A DNA stretch of 32,949 nucleotides, from IMG/VR virus record IMGVR_UViG_3300034104_005676, positions 1 to 32,949 of that record; one strand, written 5' to 3'. The stretch is from a virus. The number at the start of each line of letters is the position of its first letter. The first letter of the stretch is position 1. Position numbers and translations under genes: made by a program. Under the pieces are notes generated by a model that saw only the letters and a program-made list of their open reading frames with translations, had not been told where the DNA came from and ran no database searches. Below, piece by piece: positions 7,936-16,608 of the stretch.

Positions 7936-8153
7936 GCAATCCACCCGCCCGCACCGAGATTCCCCGCAGCGAATTGCTCGCGCTGATTTCAAACTGGAAG
8001 CAGATCGCCCAAAGAAAATTCATTGATGCCGGAAAAGCCTCCGGCATGGAGGCTCGATTCATTGAGCACGGAGCCATGTGCTATTTTAACGCCGCTAACG
8101 AACTGGAGGAACTCCTAAAGCTGCACCAAGCTGCCGCTGAGCCTCTGCCTTGA
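7932..8153 (+). CDS. Hypothetical helical protein after endolysin, 73 aa
   Basis: Start at ATG 7932 overlaps the endolysin stop (ATGA). Predicted mostly alpha-helical, with no membrane segment. Last gene of the rightward late operon; its final 59 bases overlap the 3' end of the oppositely oriented DUF2513 gene, so the two operons converge here. Function unknown. Confidence 0.6.
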   Translation: MSNPPARTEIPRSELLALISNWKQIAQRKFIDAGKASGMEARFIEHGAMCYFNAANELEELLKLHQAAAEPLP

Positions 8154-8451
8154 GAAATTCAAAGACGATAGAAAATGTCCATGAAATGCCGGGCTTCAAG
8201 AACTTCTCCTTGGCTTTGCTCCAGATCGTATCGTCCCTGGCTGCATCAAGAAAATCGTGTCCCTGCCAAGTGAGCCGAAGAATCATGGCTGTATTCGGGA
8301 GAGTCGGTGGGGAAAAGCGTCCCTCAATGAGCCCCGCATCAGACAGCAGCACCGCATTGTATATCTCCTCTGGGGTTTCGCACCGGAAGGCCTCGCTGCT
8401 GGCTTCTGCTTTAAGCAGAATGCTGCGGATCGTCTCAAGGTCTCGTTTCAT
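8095..8451 (-). CDS. DUF2513 family protein, 118 aa
   Basis: The N-terminus MKRDLETIRSILLKAE, the central LLSDAGLIEG and the following LTWQGHDFLDAARDDTIW are characteristic of DUF2513, a small phage/prophage-associated family of unknown function with a winged-helix-like pattern. It lies leftward of the regulator gene, the usual position for superinfection-exclusion or accessory lysogenic genes; that role is inference. It converges on the late operon with a 59-base overlap. Confidence 0.8.
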   Translation of the reverse strand: MKRDLETIRSILLKAEASSEAFRCETPEEIYNAVLLSDAGLIEGRFSPPTLPNTAMILRLTWQGHDFLDAARDDTIWSKAKEKFLKPGISWTFSIVFEFLKAEAQRQLGAALGVPPVR

Positions 8452-8900: not shown

Positions 8901-9065
8901 CTACTCGCTCTGTTCGGTGAGGTCGATCACTTCTGCGATCCAGTTTTGAGGGAGTGGTTCGTCGTAGGAGTTGAGGACCCACAGCCTAAATTCTCGGACA
9001 GTTTCGTGATCTTGGAACCAGCACGCGCGGCCGCCTTGGTCTTCGCGGCATTCTGGTATTTTCCC
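8901..9065 (-). other. Minus-one-frame extension of leftward RHH gene
   Basis: On the minus strand a frame opens directly after a TAA (9068-9066), at heptamer G GGA AAA (9065-9059), in the correct phase for a -1 shift from the RHH gene. It continues to TAG at 8903-8901 and has no start codon. Its product contains WFQDHETVREFRLWVLNS and PQNWIAEVIDLTEQSE, more protein-like and with better C-ending codons than the zero-frame tail. Downstream nested stems (ACCAG/CTGGT, GCCGC/GCGGC) could stimulate slippage. It could be programmed frameshifting, a natural frameshift mutation, or a sequencing error in the A-run. The fusion would be about 128 aa. Confidence 0.45.
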
Positions 9066-9286
9066 TTAGTCTTGTCCTGTGGCAGATCAACGCTCTCGTG
9101 GGTCTCTGCGGCCATGAGTGTGGGCCTGAAAAGCGCCGCTGTGTCTTCTTTGATGAGGTCCTGAACATAGCGGGAAAACATATCGACCTGCCGCTCCTCC
9201 ATGCGTTGCAGCGCCCGCTCATAAAGCTCTGGTTTGATTGAAATGGAAGGTCTTACCAAATCCTCTTTTTTTCTCTGCTTCTTCAT
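8927..9286 (-). CDS. Ribbon-helix-helix regulator, probable repressor, 119 aa
   Basis: Basic start (MKKQRKKEDL) followed by a beta strand (VRPSISIK) and two helices (PELYERALQRMEERQ, DMFSRYVQDLIKEDT): an Arc/MetJ-type RHH DNA-binding fold in residues 10-50. Divergent from a second RHH gene across a 112-base region full of TCTGAAA-type sites, one of which touches its own start codon, so it probably autoregulates. The C-terminal third in this frame is Lys/Thr/Ser-rich and looks non-natural after residue 76; see the -1 extension. Functionally it stands where phages usually keep CI. Confidence 0.75.
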   Translation of the reverse strand: MKKQRKKEDLVRPSISIKPELYERALQRMEERQVDMFSRYVQDLIKEDTAALFRPTLMAAETHESVDLPQDKTKGKYQNAAKTKAAARAGSKITKLSENLGCGSSTPTTNHSLKTGSQK

Positions 9287-9344
9287 ATTTCTGAAAATTT
9301 CACACCCATTCCTAAAAAATCAAATTTTTTCTGAAAATAAGGTG

Positions 9345-9373
9345 TTGACCTACCTCTGAAAGTTTCATACTTT
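9345..9373 (+). promoter_or_regulatory. Sigma70-type promoter for rightward early operon
   Basis: TTGACC (9345-9350), 17-base spacer, TACTTT (9368-9373). The start of transcription should fall near 9380, about 20 bases before the ATG at 9399. An operator half-site lies in the spacer, and the palindrome covers the -10 and start. Confidence 0.65.
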
Positions 9374-9393
9374 TTCTGAAGTAATCAGAAAAA
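9371..9393. promoter_or_regulatory. Perfect operator palindrome
   Basis: TTTTTCTGA (9371-9379), 5-base spacer AGTAA, TCAGAAAAA (9385-9393): 9-base arms without mismatch. It overlaps the -10 region and the likely transcription start of the rightward operon, an ideal position for repression. Confidence 0.7.
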
Positions 9394-9398
9394 CTCGT

Positions 9399-9566
9399 AT
9401 GAAATCAACCGTGAAAAAAACAGTCTCAATGCCCGCAGAGCTGCTTGAAATGGCGCTCCGCAAGGCTCGTGAGCAACACAGAAGCCTCTCCAGCTACATC
9501 CAATTCCTCATCGCTCGAGACGCCGAAAAGGCCCGCGAAGCACAACAAACTTCCTCCCCCGCCTAA
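9399..9566 (+). CDS. Small ribbon-helix-helix regulator, 55 aa
   Basis: A beta strand (KKTVSMP) is followed by helices AELLEMALRKAREQ and LSSYIQFLIARD, the whole of an Arc-like RHH domain, then a short charged tail. First gene of the rightward operon, expressed from the promoter at 9345 and covered by operator sites. Together with the divergent RHH gene it resembles an Arc/Mnt- or Cro/CI-like pair in which both members use the RHH fold. There is no Shine-Dalgarno; the leader is only about 20 bases. Confidence 0.75.
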   Translation: MKSTVKKTVSMPAELLEMALRKAREQHRSLSSYIQFLIARDAEKAREAQQTSSPA

Positions 9567-9588: not shown

Positions 9589-10050
9589 ATGAACGAGAAA
9601 ACCGCCAAACAATCCCCTGAGTTCAGCAATACTGAACACAGGTCTCATAACTATGGCGTCGGTAATGCCGACACCATTAGTCATTCACTCCCGCTCTTGC
9701 AGCGCGGAGGAAATGGAGCTGAGCCCGTCACGGAGGGCTATGCCGACAAACTCAATGGCTCCAGGAGCGTGCTGGTTGCCATTTCCCAGGCTGCGCAAGG
9801 CGCTGGCCACATCCTTCAAAGAATCCGCGATGGCTTGGGCGGAGTCTTTATTGCTCTTGGCAAGGTTATCGAGGGCCGTGATGAGAGGATCGCTGGTGGG
9901 CATAGGGTGGGCGATGTCATCACCTACCGGCCAGTAGGTCAAGCCTCGTCACTGCAAGCGCGCATCGTGCGGATCGTGGGCGAAGCGGCCAAGCTCAGCA
10001 ACGGGGCCGTGGTGTCTGCCGACCGCATCCGGGAAAGGGGGCTGGCATGA
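9589..10050 (+). CDS. Hypothetical early protein, 153 aa
   Basis: Start chosen at ATG 9589, 22 bases after the RHH stop; the frame stays open further upstream but would overlap the RHH gene. No recognised domain. Residues about 108-150 (GDVITYRPVGQ, then RIVRIVGEAAKLSNGAVVSA) resemble a small beta-barrel. The opposite strand holds a tidy 72-85-codon ORF at 9685-9942 that also reads like protein, so coding strand is not fully certain for the middle part. It ends by ATGA overlap with the antirepressor gene, which favours the plus strand. Confidence 0.55.
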   Translation: MNEKTAKQSPEFSNTEHRSHNYGVGNADTISHSLPLLQRGGNGAEPVTEGYADKLNGSRSVLVAISQAAQGAGHILQRIRDGLGGVFIALGKVIEGRDERIAGGHRVGDVITYRPVGQASSLQARIVRIVGEAAKLSNGAVVSADRIRERGLA

Positions 10051-10829
10051 AAGGCGAAATCCAGACATTTGATTTCAAGAGCACGCCTGTTCGAGCCATG
10101 GATCGCGCTGGGCAAACATGGTTCGTCGCCGCCGATGTCTGCCGGGCTTTGGATATTTCAAACCACCGCGATGCTGTGCAAGGGCTCGAAGATGATGAAA
10201 AGGGTGTCGCTATTGCCGACACCCTTGGCGGGGCTCAAAAGATTCAGACGATTTCCGAGTCCGGCCTGTATGCCTTGATCTTCAAATCCCGCAAGCCGGA
10301 GGCGAAGGCTTTCCGCAAGTGGGTGACCGGCGAGGTGCTGCCTGCGATCCGGCGCACGGGCGGGTATGCGGTGCTCACCGGCATCGGCCGCATCCAGCAG
10401 GTGCTGGAACTGGCGATCTGCGATCTCTACGAGGGCCGCATGTCGGTGGAGAAGGCCACGGCCATGGCTGGGCTCGTGGGCCAATACTACCGCAATGGCT
10501 GGAAGCTGGGCCAAGCCACCGAGACCACCCAAGCCCTCGAGGTGCTGGACGGGGAGCACAAGGAATTTTCCGCGTTGGTGGCAGCTCTCTGGAGCCGCGA
10601 CCAGGATAAGGAGTGGAGCAGCCTGGAGATGCGGCAAGTGGCCGTGGCTGAGGGCCTCTTCTCCCCATGGCTCAAGACCAAGACAATCCTGAGCCCCTCC
10701 ATCGCCTCCCGCTTCGGCCTGCTCTGTGACCGGCAGTGCAGCAAGGCCTTCGACGGCATCCTCTTTCAACGCCACGGCAAGAACCGCGCCCGCGTCTTCA
10801 CGCTCACCCAACTCGCTCAACCCGAATGA
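10047..10829 (+). CDS. BRO-family antirepressor, 260 aa
   Basis: Residues 5-110 form a BRO-N domain: VRAMDRAGQTWFVAADVCRA, then ALDISNHRDAVQGL, ISESGLYALIFKSRKPEAKA and FRKWVTGEVLPAIRRTGGY are diagnostic. BRO-N proteins bind DNA and in phages act as antirepressors that push lysogens towards lysis. The C-terminal half (110-260) is a separate helical/winged region ending in a short CDRQCSKAFDGILFQRHGKN segment that I do not assign. It overlaps both neighbours by four bases. Confidence 0.88.
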   Translation: MKGEIQTFDFKSTPVRAMDRAGQTWFVAADVCRALDISNHRDAVQGLEDDEKGVAIADTLGGAQKIQTISESGLYALIFKSRKPEAKAFRKWVTGEVLPAIRRTGGYAVLTGIGRIQQVLELAICDLYEGRMSVEKATAMAGLVGQYYRNGWKLGQATETTQALEVLDGEHKEFSALVAALWSRDQDKEWSSLEMRQVAVAEGLFSPWLKTKTILSPSIASRFGLLCDRQCSKAFDGILFQRHGKNRARVFTLTQLAQPE

Positions 10830-11026
10830 AAATCGCCGACCTCCAAAAAATCTTCGTCGATGCGGACCACGCGGCCGAGCACGCCTCGGTGCTGTGGGAT
10901 GCCTCGCTCGAGGAGGCTTATGCCGCCCTTCGTGACGCGTCGGCGGCCTGCCTCACGGCGCGCGGGCAGGATTCCCTCGTCGCCAAACTCCAATCCAACT
11001 CCACCCACCAGCCGACGCCGGTATGA
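10826..11026 (+). CDS. Hypothetical helical protein, 66 aa
   Basis: Begins by ATGA overlap at 10826 and ends by ATGA overlap at 11023. Predicted helical (MKIADLQKIFVDADHAAEHA), acidic, soluble. Unknown function in the early operon. Confidence 0.6.
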   Translation: MKIADLQKIFVDADHAAEHASVLWDASLEEAYAALRDASAACLTARGQDSLVAKLQSNSTHQPTPV

Positions 11027-11921: not shown

Positions 11922-12110
11922 ATGACCCTCTCCGCCCACCTCGCCGCCGCCCGCCGTCACCTCGCCGCCGTGGACCGCCTCGCCCGCAGGCCATCCACCC
12001 CGCCGAAACGCGAAACATGGCCCCCGCAGCCCCCCGCCGGCGACCGCTGGTGCACACCGGAGGAAGTCGCGGAGGCATGTGCCGAGTTGCGCAAGCAGCT
12101 CAGGGATTAA
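11922..12110 (+). CDS. Hypothetical Arg/Ala/Pro-rich protein, 62 aa
   Basis: Helical N-terminus (AHLAAARRHLAAVDRLARR), Pro-rich centre and acidic helix at the end (TPEEVAEACAELRKQLRD). Its TAA stop is the first part of the dispersed repeat that follows. No family recognised. Confidence 0.5.
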   Translation: MTLSAHLAAARRHLAAVDRLARRPSTPPKRETWPPQPPAGDRWCTPEEVAEACAELRKQLRD

Positions 12111-12139
12111 CCACAGAGGACACGGAGAACACGGAGGAG
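12109..12139 (+). repeat. Dispersed CACGGAGG repeat, plus orientation
   Basis: AACCACAGAGGACACGGAG followed by AACACGGAGGAG. This iterated ACACGGAG sequence is a widespread dispersed repeat in some bacterial phyla (established, from memory). A second copy lies at 22461 in reverse orientation. Here the 3' part provides GGAGGAG as ribosome-binding site for the gene at 12146. Confidence 0.7.
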
Positions 12140-12145
12140 CAGGAA

Positions 12146-12718
12146 ATGAAGCCCACGCCGCAAGAACTCGAGCAGGAAGCCCTGCTCCGAAACTGGCTCG
12201 ACGGCCTCGAGCCGCTCAAGCGCGAGGAGGTATCTGCCGCCCTCGAGCCCGTCGCCGCTCTGCCCACGGTGGAGGATGAGTATCTGGAGACATTCCCCGA
12301 CCCCGATCCATTCGATGTAGACAAGGACGAGTGGAAACTGGCCGAAAATCTGAACCTCGGCCTCGAGGAGGCCACCCGCGTGCTGGAGTGGCACCAAGTC
12401 GCCGTGGCCCGCGAAGTGGACTGGGCCAAAGCCGAGCAGCTCAACCTCATCGTCTCCTTCCTGATCAAGCCGACCAAAAACCTCCGCGCCCTGGTGCGCG
12501 CCCTCGCCCTGGCAACCGGCCTCGCCGAACTCAACGGCACCCACTCCCAAGCCGAAGTAGCCCGCGAACTCGGCGTAACCCGCTCGCTCATTTCCTACTA
12601 TGTCACCACTTGGGCCGACCTCCTCAAAATCGGCGTCTTCAAATTTCGCAAGGCCTCCAGCTCACGGGAGATCTACCGCGAAGCAGCAAAAACCTCGTGG
12701 GCAAAACGAAAGGCATAA
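12146..12718 (+). CDS. HTH DNA-binding protein, 190 aa
   Basis: Start at ATG 12146 with GGAGGAG eight bases upstream; longer in-frame readings run through the repeat and the previous gene. Residues about 135-165 form a helix-turn-helix (HSQAEVARELGVTRSLISYY). The N-terminal half is acidic and helical, and the C-terminus is basic and ends WAKRKA. Probably a transcriptional regulator or replication accessory of the early region. Its last codons are part of a 17-base repeat that recurs after the next gene. Confidence 0.7.
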   Translation: MKPTPQELEQEALLRNWLDGLEPLKREEVSAALEPVAALPTVEDEYLETFPDPDPFDVDKDEWKLAENLNLGLEEATRVLEWHQVAVAREVDWAKAEQLNLIVSFLIKPTKNLRALVRALALATGLAELNGTHSQAEVARELGVTRSLISYYVTTWADLLKIGVFKFRKASSSREIYREAAKTSWAKRKA

Positions 12719-12719
12719 A
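12703..12719 (+). repeat. 17-bp direct repeat, left copy
   Basis: AAAACGAAAGGCATAAA, identical to 13570-13586. It spans the end of the HTH gene, its stop and the first base of the next start. Brackets the ParB-like gene with the right copy. Confidence 0.8.
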
Positions 12720-13567
12720 TGAAAACGAAAAATGAATCGGAAGAAATGGCGCTTTCCTTTGGAAGGCAATCAAAACAATCAAAAGTAGAGCGGTATAAGT
12801 GGACAACCAAAGACTCGCCTGGGGAGTATCAACTTATTGATAAAAACTTGTTACTGATTTCCCCTGAATATCAGAGGGAAAAGGTAACTCTGGATAAGGT
12901 GAGAATGGTAGCCCAAGACTGGTCATGGGTTGCCTGTGGAACAATAACTGTTGGCCTCCGGGCAGGCCAATACTGGGTCATCGATGGCCAGCACCGGGTG
13001 CTTGGGGCAAAGCGCAGAGCTGACATAGAATGCCTCCCATGTCTTGTTTTTGATACCTACACGGTTCAAGAGGAAGCTAAGGGGTTTTTAAATGTAAACA
13101 CTGGCCGCAAACCGATCACCAGCATCGATAAATTTCGCGCTGCTCTTGCTGCCGACGATGAAATTGCAAGATTCGTTCAAGAAACATTTAACGAATTGGG
13201 CGTAGTAGCTAAAGCGACTGCAAATAATCCAAAGGAGATAAAGGCCTTAGATTGGGCAATAAAACGCGCCACAGAGAATAGGGTCGCTTTTTCACAGGTC
13301 TTATCCATGGCCGCTGAACTCTGTGAAAGCATGCCGATACAAAACATCCTTCTGGACGGGCTTTATTACATTCATACCCATACTTCTGAAACGATTTACG
13401 ATAAACGAATTTATCAAAAAATAAAGAAAATAGGGGCAAAAGGGCTTGTCGATGCGGCAAAGCGAGCCTCGGCATTTTTTGTATCAGGAGGCTCTACCGT
13501 GTGGGGCACAGGAATGTTGGAAGAAATTAACAAGGGTTTCCGCGAAAAAATTGCTTTTATCAAATAA
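12719..13567 (+). CDS. ParB-like nuclease-domain protein, 282 aa
   Basis: The segment LLISPEYQREKVTLDKVRMV ... YWVIDGQHRVLGAKRRADIE is a ParB/Srx-type fold with the conserved DGQHR motif (about 82-86), as in DndB/DGQHR-like and ParB-like nuclease proteins. The C-terminal part is helical. The gene is clearly AT-richer than its neighbours and is bracketed by a 17-bp direct repeat, so it looks like a recently inserted cargo gene. Roles might include DNA binding or nicking, or host interaction; the family does not settle this. Confidence 0.75.
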   Translation: MKTKNESEEMALSFGRQSKQSKVERYKWTTKDSPGEYQLIDKNLLLISPEYQREKVTLDKVRMVAQDWSWVACGTITVGLRAGQYWVIDGQHRVLGAKRRADIECLPCLVFDTYTVQEEAKGFLNVNTGRKPITSIDKFRAALAADDEIARFVQETFNELGVVAKATANNPKEIKALDWAIKRATENRVAFSQVLSMAAELCESMPIQNILLDGLYYIHTHTSETIYDKRIYQKIKKIGAKGLVDAAKRASAFFVSGGSTVWGTGMLEEINKGFREKIAFIK

Positions 13568-15262: not shown

Positions 15263-15525
15263 TGGATCAAGACCGGCTTTATTTTCCCTGCGAGATTGCC
15301 GAGGTGATCGGCCTATCTCTGCGGGAGATCGCTTATATGAAGGCTAAAGGCTGCCCCTTCTACGGCCGGAAGACGACGGTGCGGTGGGTGCGTGATTTTA
15401 TAGCCCGGCAGGCGGGGGCACCAATGCCGCAGCCGCCTGAGCATCCGCAAAATTCAGCCGCGAGTAGATCAGGTGGACGAGACGAGTGGAGTGGTTTGTC
15501 AACCGCATCGCTTGCGACTCGCTGA
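15259..15525 (+). CDS. Excisionase-like HTH protein, 88 aa
   Basis: Residues 7-50 (LYFPCEIAEVIGLSLREIAY, then KAKGCPFYGRKTTVRWVRDF) read as a MerR/Xis-like winged helix: a recognition helix followed by a wing and a second helix. Start ATG 15259 overlaps the DUF551 stop; a longer in-frame ORF exists upstream. The last 128 bases run antisense over the 3' end of the integrase gene, so a recombination directionality factor expressed from the lytic operon is the best guess. The Pro/Ser tail (after 55) may be partly constrained by the integrase. Confidence 0.6.
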   Translation: MMDQDRLYFPCEIAEVIGLSLREIAYMKAKGCPFYGRKTTVRWVRDFIARQAGAPMPQPPEHPQNSAASRSGGRDEWSGLSTASLATR

Positions 15526-16432
15526 GCCCAGCCCTGTGACATCGAGTAATGAATGAGACGCGCAATGAATGGGAGGTGGCTCCGGTGGCTGCCTTGAGAG
15601 TTTTATTGAACTGGCGGTTGTGCTCTCCGCTCTTGTCGAGTGGCGGGGTGGTGCGGTCGCGCTTGTCGAATACGGCCTTGAGATGCGAGGCGAGTGTGTC
15701 GGGCAGTGGGACGCAAAAGCGTTTGCGCGGGTCGGTATCGTCACGCTTGGAATCCACGAGAGTGACCATCTTTTTCTCAAAATCCACGGCATCGCGGCCA
15801 AGCTCAGACTCGGAGAATCGGCAGCCGAGATGCGAGCAGACCTCGAAGGCGGTGAGCATCCACGCGGCCCCGCTGCGCTCGGTGAATGCGGCGCGCGCGG
15901 CAATGAAGTCCTCGGGAGTGAGCTCCTTTTTTACCTTTGCCGCTTTGCGGGGAACCTTCGCCAGGGCGAGGGGATTTTTCTCAGTCAGCTCACGGCGCAT
16001 GGCCTCCTGCATGATGCTGGAGAAAAACTTGATCTCGAGGCGGGCGGTATTCTTTGAAGCGCCCTGTGCCGTGCGCCAGTCCAAAAAATCCTGCACATGC
16101 TCGAAGCGGACGGCTGCCGGATGCCTGACCCGCCGCAATCTCTGCCACTCGACGATCCTCGCCCAGGCGAGCCGATACCGCTTCACCGACCTCTTATTCG
16201 TGTAGTGCCGCTCTATGAACTCAGGAACCCAAGCCACAAAATCCCCCTTTTCCGTCGGCGCGACCTGCGCCTCGCGGCGGGACTCCTCCTCAGCCATGCG
16301 CTGCGCCCGGCGGGTCGCCTTCGCATCGTCGGCATCGCACTTCGTGGACCTTTCCCTCCACTGCCCAGAATCAAGGTCTCGATACCTCAAAACCCAAAAG
16401 CGGGTCTTCTCGCTGCGAACCAAGTGTGCCAT
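15398..16432 (-). CDS. Tyrosine integrase, 344 aa
   Basis: Site-specific recombinase for integration and excision. Numbering from the ATG at 16432: R205 (HLGCRFSESE), K229, H288-R291 (SHSLR), H314 (TNHST) and nucleophile Y323 (LIYSRLN) complete the catalytic set. Residues 60-150 are a core-binding SAM-like domain, and 1-55 an arm-binding domain. Start 16432 chosen because GGGAG stands nine bases upstream; ATG 16450 is possible but overlaps an arm-site repeat. A minus -10-like TATAGA lies at 16469-16464. It overlaps the excisionase-like gene at its 3' end. Confidence 0.9.
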   Translation of the reverse strand: MAHLVRSEKTRFWVLRYRDLDSGQWRERSTKCDADDAKATRRAQRMAEEESRREAQVAPTEKGDFVAWVPEFIERHYTNKRSVKRYRLAWARIVEWQRLRRVRHPAAVRFEHVQDFLDWRTAQGASKNTARLEIKFFSSIMQEAMRRELTEKNPLALAKVPRKAAKVKKELTPEDFIAARAAFTERSGAAWMLTAFEVCSHLGCRFSESELGRDAVDFEKKMVTLVDSKRDDTDPRKRFCVPLPDTLASHLKAVFDKRDRTTPPLDKSGEHNRQFNKTLKAATGATSHSLRVSFITRCHRAGLSESQAMRLTNHSTRLVHLIYSRLNFADAQAAAALVPPPAGL

Positions 16433-16441
16433 ATCGGCAAA

Positions 16442-16608
16442 CTCCCACATGCTCCCACATGCGTCTATAAAAATATTGCAAACTGATGCAGGCTATTGCT
16501 GTAAATCAACAATTTACGCGAGCGGGAGATTCTTACCATTACACCACAGGGCAAGTTTAGTTCTTGATTTTGTTGCACTTGCGGGAGACTCCCACACGGC
16601 TCCCACAA
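16442..16608. other. Probable attP region
   Basis: Four same-orientation CTCCCACA repeats flank the spacer: 16442-16449 and 16452-16459 on the integrase side, 16589-16596 and 16600-16607 on the replication side. They look like arm-type integrase sites. Between them lie the inverted repeat GTAAAT (16501-16506) / ATTTAC (16512-16517), a good core-type site, and a minus-strand tRNA-like 5' half (16552 to about 16518) with a D-loop-like TAATGGTAA. The tRNA similarity is weak and would be the unusual half for an attP. Confidence 0.5.

Follow-up and report, generated by a model that had tools for sequence, protein, structure and literature searches.

How is lysogeny held in a temperate phage whose immunity position carries two divergent genes that both encode ribbon-helix-helix (RHH) proteins? 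The best-known phage switches use helix-turn-helix (HTH) repressors, and the known double-RHH system of a bacterial phage, immI of P22, is an accessory one. The window, by which we mean the whole stretch of DNA analysed, is an entire IMG/VR virus record of 32,949 bases. Comparison with related loci makes it fairly likely that the pair is a lysis-lysogeny switch of the CI/Cro kind in which divergent RHH proteins take both roles and a -1 frameshift gives the repressor two isoforms. The genes concerned are the following.

8095-8451, minus strand: gene for a DUF2513 protein, 3' of the left gene
8927..9286, minus strand: left RHH regulator, frame-0 short product of 119 aa, proposed lysogeny repressor (open reading frame, profile-profile comparison, model, conserved divergent partner)
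9287..9398, no strand: control region, AT-rich, 112 bp, 29% GC against 58% for the window (sequence composition)
9399..9566, plus strand: right gene, a 55-aa RHH regulator with a proposed Cro-like early role (open reading frame, Pfam, model, Foldseek)
9589..10050, plus strand: 153-aa open reading frame after the right RHH gene and ahead of BRO
10047..10829, plus strand: BRO/Ant-type antirepressor gene, accessory to the window phage (Bro-N 2e-22; PHROG anti-repressor Ant)
10826-11026, plus strand: 66-aa gene (directly after the right RHH gene in L007)
12107-12718, plus strand: HTH protein, possible replication or late regulator (conserved in almost all early-region relatives)
12719-13567, plus strand: ParB-like/DUF6551 protein, its N terminus weakly matching GmrSD, within the early operon
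15398..16450, minus strand: tyrosine integrase, which marks a temperate lifestyle

A sequence-only reading had assigned the 119 aa leftward and 55 aa rightward products to the RHH class; both open reading frames are exact, and profile comparison, structure model and Foldseek support the assignment. In Pfam the right protein matches RHH_5 (4e-4) and Arc (5e-3), both below the curated cut-offs; its distant relatives clear the cut-offs of RHH_1, RHH_5 and RHH_3. The AlphaFold model (mean pLDDT 87) has helices at residues 13-25 and 30-51. P22 Arc leads the Foldseek matches (TM 0.7); the other leading ones belong to RHH proteins too, and CopG is also matched. Model and matches place the protein in the RHH (MetJ/Arc) superfamily, which is defined by a short N-terminal strand, two helices and a dimeric fold. 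The Pfam score does not extend to membership of the Arc family at the sequence level, yet Arc is still the top structural match. The right proteins of seven close relatives are 55-67% identical to that of the window; no convincing relative was found in named phages.

The left protein of the window, taken alone, gives no Pfam match, and a single-sequence search for close relatives returned none; in a wider set some members match Arc and RHH_1. Alignment of the left and right protein profiles with hhalign gives a probability of 97% (E 2e-11), and 97% again with wider sets, by which measure the two profiles are homologous. Weak matches to the RHH domains of NikR and MatP were found among solved structures. 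In the model both RHH helices are present and the remainder and tail are disordered, and the profile evidence points to an N-terminal domain of the RHH (MetJ/Arc) type. A 'conserved GSSTxTT tail' was considered as a motif of the left protein and discarded, being the shadow of a conserved -1 frame described below.

Comparison establishes the pair and its conservation. Divergent RHH genes are kept in 11/11 close IMG/VR relatives and, with different RHH sequences, in four distant prophages of Chthoniobacter/Spartobacteria hosts (a Chthoniobacter MAG, a 'Burkholderiaceae' bin, a Verrucomicrobia MAG and the second phage on a contig of ~57 kb). They occur in some 30 further loci, and a divergent RHH right gene is present in nearly all of 35 loci that bear the tail described below, a set that includes the window and overlaps with some of the close and distant relatives. 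Integrase was found in 11/12 close records (window included), the exception being a 7.6-kb fragment, and in 16/20 other records or genomes tested. The early operon lies to the right of the pair. The integrase gene adjoins the left gene in two distant prophages, which have an HTH_17 (excisionase-like) gene after the right gene. That neither regulator is of the CI/Cro HTH type, as the earlier reading had it, agrees with the RHH assignments of both, and no HTH_3 or CI-type repressor matched above cut-off in the 12 records. In several of them the best sub-threshold HTH_3 match is the conserved HTH gene some 2.6 kb downstream (12107-12718), a possible further regulator. The DUF2513 gene was rejected as a candidate repressor: its position beside the left gene is not kept in the close relatives read. 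The Chthoniobacter prophage (L125) has an ORF similar to DUF2513, and L002 and L007 carry other genes there. The pair seems to be the only switch of the window phage, placed at the head of the early operon.

The control region contains the following elements.

9288..9294, plus strand: TTTCTGA half-site near the left gene start
9328..9334, plus strand: TTTCTGA half-site in the middle of the control region
9345..9373, plus strand: rightward promoter-like TTGACC-N17-TACTTT (sequence, alignment of relatives)
9363..9370, plus strand: TTTCATAC, left arm of the putative main operator, overlapping the -10 box
9371..9393, plus strand: nested inverted repeat TTTTTCTGA-N5-TCAGAAAAA, a second half-site type found in the window phage only
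9397..9404, plus strand: GTATGAAA, right arm of the putative main operator, overlapping the right start codon

A generic promoter scan of the control region found nothing. The -35 (TTGACC) and the 17-base spacing of the rightward promoter are conserved in relatives; the -10 (TACTTT) is weak. The two arms TTTCATAC and GTATGAAA are separated by a 26-bp gap in the window, and the arrangement is conserved in relatives, where the operator takes the form TTCATAC-N14-GTATGAA. Throughout the relatives the left arm sits in the -10 box, while the right arm coincides with the start codon or immediately precedes it; next to the left gene start there is a second operator copy, whose gap is short. The inverted-repeat arms are 11-14 bp long in L004, L006 and L007 (up to 14 bp in L004, 11 bp in L006), and 0/500 shuffles equal those of L006 or L007. 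In L006 GTATGAA occurs four times (0/1000 shuffles). The arms change together: L002 and L007 have TTCCTAC and GTAGGAA, and in these two the strand of the right protein reads KKSISI against K[KR]T[IV]SM in the others. Repeated words are more frequent than in shuffled sequence when 21 distinct control regions are taken together (combined P ~2e-13). Symmetric, co-changing operators are thereby established by comparison.

The sequence-only reading had placed a perfect palindrome over the rightward promoter and at least four sites of one type between the genes. The inverted repeat is there (9371-9393), with 9-bp arms that are separated by a 5-bp gap. Since it is equalled by 31/500 shuffles (6%) of this AT-rich stretch, it is not significant alone, and we rejected it as the main operator; the pair TTTCATAC...GTATGAAA appears the better-supported element. 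Exact TTTCTGAAA occurs only twice (9288 and 9328), whereas TTTCTGA is found four times over both strands (9288, 9328, 9373 and, reversed, 9385), a number reached by 1/1000 shuffles. A switch of two divergent RHH regulators, as proposed there, is well supported by the comparison, with operators more specific than the TTTCTGAAA sites. In alignments the left protein of the window has S at a position that is T in relatives whose sites are GTATGAA. From these few lineages we infer that in the window TTTCATAC is the target of the right protein and TTTCTGA that of the left, and that in the L006 type both would read GTATGAA.

The earlier reading missed what appears to be the most novel part of the locus, a predicted second product of the left gene made by frameshifting.

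9059..9065, minus strand: slippery heptamer G_GGA_AAA in the X_XXY_YYZ phase of the left gene (sequence, locus comparison)
8901..9065, minus strand: -1 frame extension, 54 codons from GGG, GKIPECREDQGGRACWFQDHETVREFRLWVLNSYDEPLPQNWIAEVIDLTEQSE (conserved tail in 35 loci)

Three-frame reading shows that the -1 frame overlaps the 3' end of the left gene, passes its stop and ends at 8901. In the window it begins right after a TAA, at the in-phase G_GGA_AAA, and the predicted long form of the left protein has 128 aa. The tail has the consensus FR.WVLNSYDG.LP..W.AEV.DLT in loci of 31 viral contigs and two MAGs. In 35/35 loci it is out of frame (-1) with the upstream DNA-binding ORF, and in none is it in frame. 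GGGAAA stands in phase at the junction in 24/35 loci, against 3/3,786 other codon boundaries. Ten of the 35 (L134-L136, L138-L141, L144-L146) have instead CAAAAAT, not a standard heptamer, with ..QKSS.. in frame 0, which is perhaps a single-tRNA slip on A_AAA; the junction of the remaining locus, L147, is unassigned. Past the frame-0 stop, substitutions at tail-frame positions 1, 2 and 3 number 9, 5 and 29 (29/43 in third position; P=5e-6). Where the frames overlap they number 154, 125 and 173, a pattern as would be expected if both frames are constrained. The -1 frame and its slip site are therefore established from comparison; slippage itself we infer. Of the features by which a -1 frameshift is recognised, an in-phase heptamer at the junction (24/35) and a conserved protein frame lacking a start are present; folding for simple stems gave no strong or consistent downstream stimulatory RNA structure (z -1.6 to +1.7). 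The assembled features argue for programmed -1 slippage at G_GGA_AAA in the left gene. The close relatives L002, L003, L004 and L006 have the switch without the tail, all without the GGGAAA heptamer, so the long form would not be essential everywhere. Searches of Pfam, PHROGs and solved structures found nothing of weight for the tail domain. In L153, L156 and L157 the tail frame runs into tandem SHQPPAT repeats and then into lipoprotein-like sequence (MKPLLALLALLLAACAS) with no stop.

Heads and tails of the left protein combine separately. L135, L136 and L138 have identical tails and unrelated heads; L136 and L146 share a head and differ in their tails. The similarity of heads correlates with that of the right proteins (rho 0.44) and of the tails (0.40), the right protein-tail correlation being weaker (0.21). 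Because heads and tails combine separately, with the weaker link between right protein and tail, the slip site is also the place where recombination joins a specificity part to a conserved one. DNA-binding heads appear to be exchanged between phages ahead of a conserved tail, the join falling at the slip site.

In the proposed mechanism, the left protein would bind in the lysogen to the half-sites that cover the -10 box of the rightward promoter and the right start codon, and turn the early operon off. It would also regulate itself from the sites beside its own start. Upon infection or induction, the right protein, product of the first gene of the early operon, would bind related sites and turn the left gene off. 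The roles in repression and immunity are part of this proposal. The left gene would yield the short form and, via -1 slippage at G_GGA_AAA, the long form, in which a conserved Cys/Trp-rich domain replaces the frame-0 tail. By analogy with Mnt, whose C-terminal domain adds tetramerisation in P22, this domain would probably serve oligomerisation or response to an inducing signal. In the window phage the BRO protein may serve as an added antirepressor.

The layout is that of lambda CI/Cro, where a divergent repressor and early regulator have shared or overlapping operators on the early promoter. It differs in that RHH proteins replace HTH proteins, no CI protease domain is present and the repressor is predicted in two isoforms. 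An RHH protein can maintain lysogeny: F55 of SSV1, a small protein of an archaeal virus, is reported to do so through repression of early promoters and of the promoter of its own gene (PMC5569661). It is, however, a single archaeal regulator acting on tandem repeats, with no divergent RHH partner or frameshift described. Heptamers of the form G_GGA_AAN, as in the window, are found in lambda gpG/gpGT and in archaeal tailed viruses, and G_GGA_AAC and G_GGA_AAG are listed among sites that are prone to shifting or that tailed viruses use (PMC5009743). These -1 frameshift cases concern mostly tail and head proteins, unlike the regulator of the window; a frameshift in cro of phage A2, seen in E. coli, was judged apparently irrelevant in the phage's own host. 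Searches of open-licence papers turned up neither an all-RHH primary switch of a bacterial phage nor a lysogeny repressor with a conserved frameshift.

P22 Arc/Mnt, named as the nearest parallel in the sequence-only reading, matches in layout: mnt is divergent from arc (83 and 53 aa), ant follows, and the window likewise has an RHH pair of about the same sizes with operators between the genes and an antirepressor gene to the right. The main repressor of P22 is C2. It is conceivable, if unlikely, that the pair of the window is likewise an accessory that controls only an antirepressor or early timing, with another gene as the main immunity repressor. The shared geometry and the BRO gene in the rightward operon speak for this, and the P22 module is indeed an 'ant moron' located in the late operon (PMC2629481). 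In the window, by contrast, the pair heads the early operon, and several relatives have an HTH_17/excisionase-like gene directly 3' of it; no CI-like protein, and so no counterpart of a separate C2-type HTH repressor, scored above cut-off in a six-frame search of the 12 records for HTH_3; and the left gene has its conserved -1 frame extension. BRO, although correctly recognised in the earlier reading as an antirepressor gene (Bro-N 2e-22), is not a conserved partner, Bro-N being confined to the window (0/11 relatives) while the pair is kept in all 11. In L007 the 66-aa gene follows the right RHH gene directly, so BRO and the 153-aa ORF look inserted in the window. The P22 likeness holds for the layout and does not seem to extend to the accessory, late-operon role. 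A reversal of roles, in which the right protein keeps lysogeny and the left acts early in lytic growth, we regard as improbable. Both proteins are RHH proteins with sites that are likely shared, and the sequence carries no measure of expression; against this, the right gene is the first of a long early operon (HTH, ParB-like and other early genes), and the left gene faces away and adjoins integrase in L127/G006b.

An improbable alternative to frameshifting is that the -1 frame is a separate small protein translated from a non-standard start, or a DNA or RNA element that merely looks coding. It would account for the lack of a clear stimulatory RNA structure, and a few tail loci do have a TTG or ATG upstream in the tail frame. 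In 31/35 loci, the window included, no ATG, GTG or TTG precedes the tail core, the slippery heptamer falls exactly at the junction, and the third-position bias indicates protein-coding constraint in the tail frame, all of which favour a frameshifted repressor isoform. That the pair are RHH antitoxins or plasmid copy-control or partition proteins we consider very improbable: Pfam matches do include CopG and antitoxin RHH families, but neither a toxin gene nor one for a replication initiator could be recognised next to the pair, which stands in integrase-bearing phage or prophage contexts.

If the CI/Cro-like switch is correct, a whole phage group relying on RHH pairs would have solved the lysis-lysogeny decision independently in a second way, and a repressor isoform made by frameshifting would be a new way to tune such a switch. 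Recombination would then change the immunity type, and the part for signal sensing or oligomerisation would stay constant; head-swapping before a conserved tail would offer a direct handle on the evolution of immunity types. The paired changes in half-site and recognition strand are ready-made specificity tests. We regard it as rather more probable than not that a widespread group of temperate Verrucomicrobiota phages has an all-RHH switch with a two-isoform repressor made by a conserved -1 frameshift, and with heads swapped before the out-of-frame tail.

Verrucomicrobiota are common in soil and water and their phages are little studied. The terminase of the window is 82-84% identical to those in two MAGs, one of Chthoniobacter flavus and one of an uncultured member of the Spartobacteria; the host is therefore probably a Chthoniobacter-like member of the Verrucomicrobiota from soil or freshwater. 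In the Chthoniobacter MAG, host genes adjoin the phage genes, as for a prophage. By terminase the nearest named phage is Akkermansia phage Moulinsart (36%), in whose annotation no RHH pair was seen and whose regulators match HTH models, mostly weakly. Among 384 genomes of the class of the Chthoniobacter prophage, RHH matches were found in 28; the loci read are mostly small chromosomal RHH genes and not the switch. A terminase 74% identical to that of the window (L062/G013) lies in a MAG labelled Burkholderiaceae, a label that is probably explained by misbinning or by hosts beyond the Verrucomicrobiota. The 57.5-kb contig G006 (loci L056-L058) carries two related phages, both of which have a terminase, an integrase and a double-RHH switch of their own.
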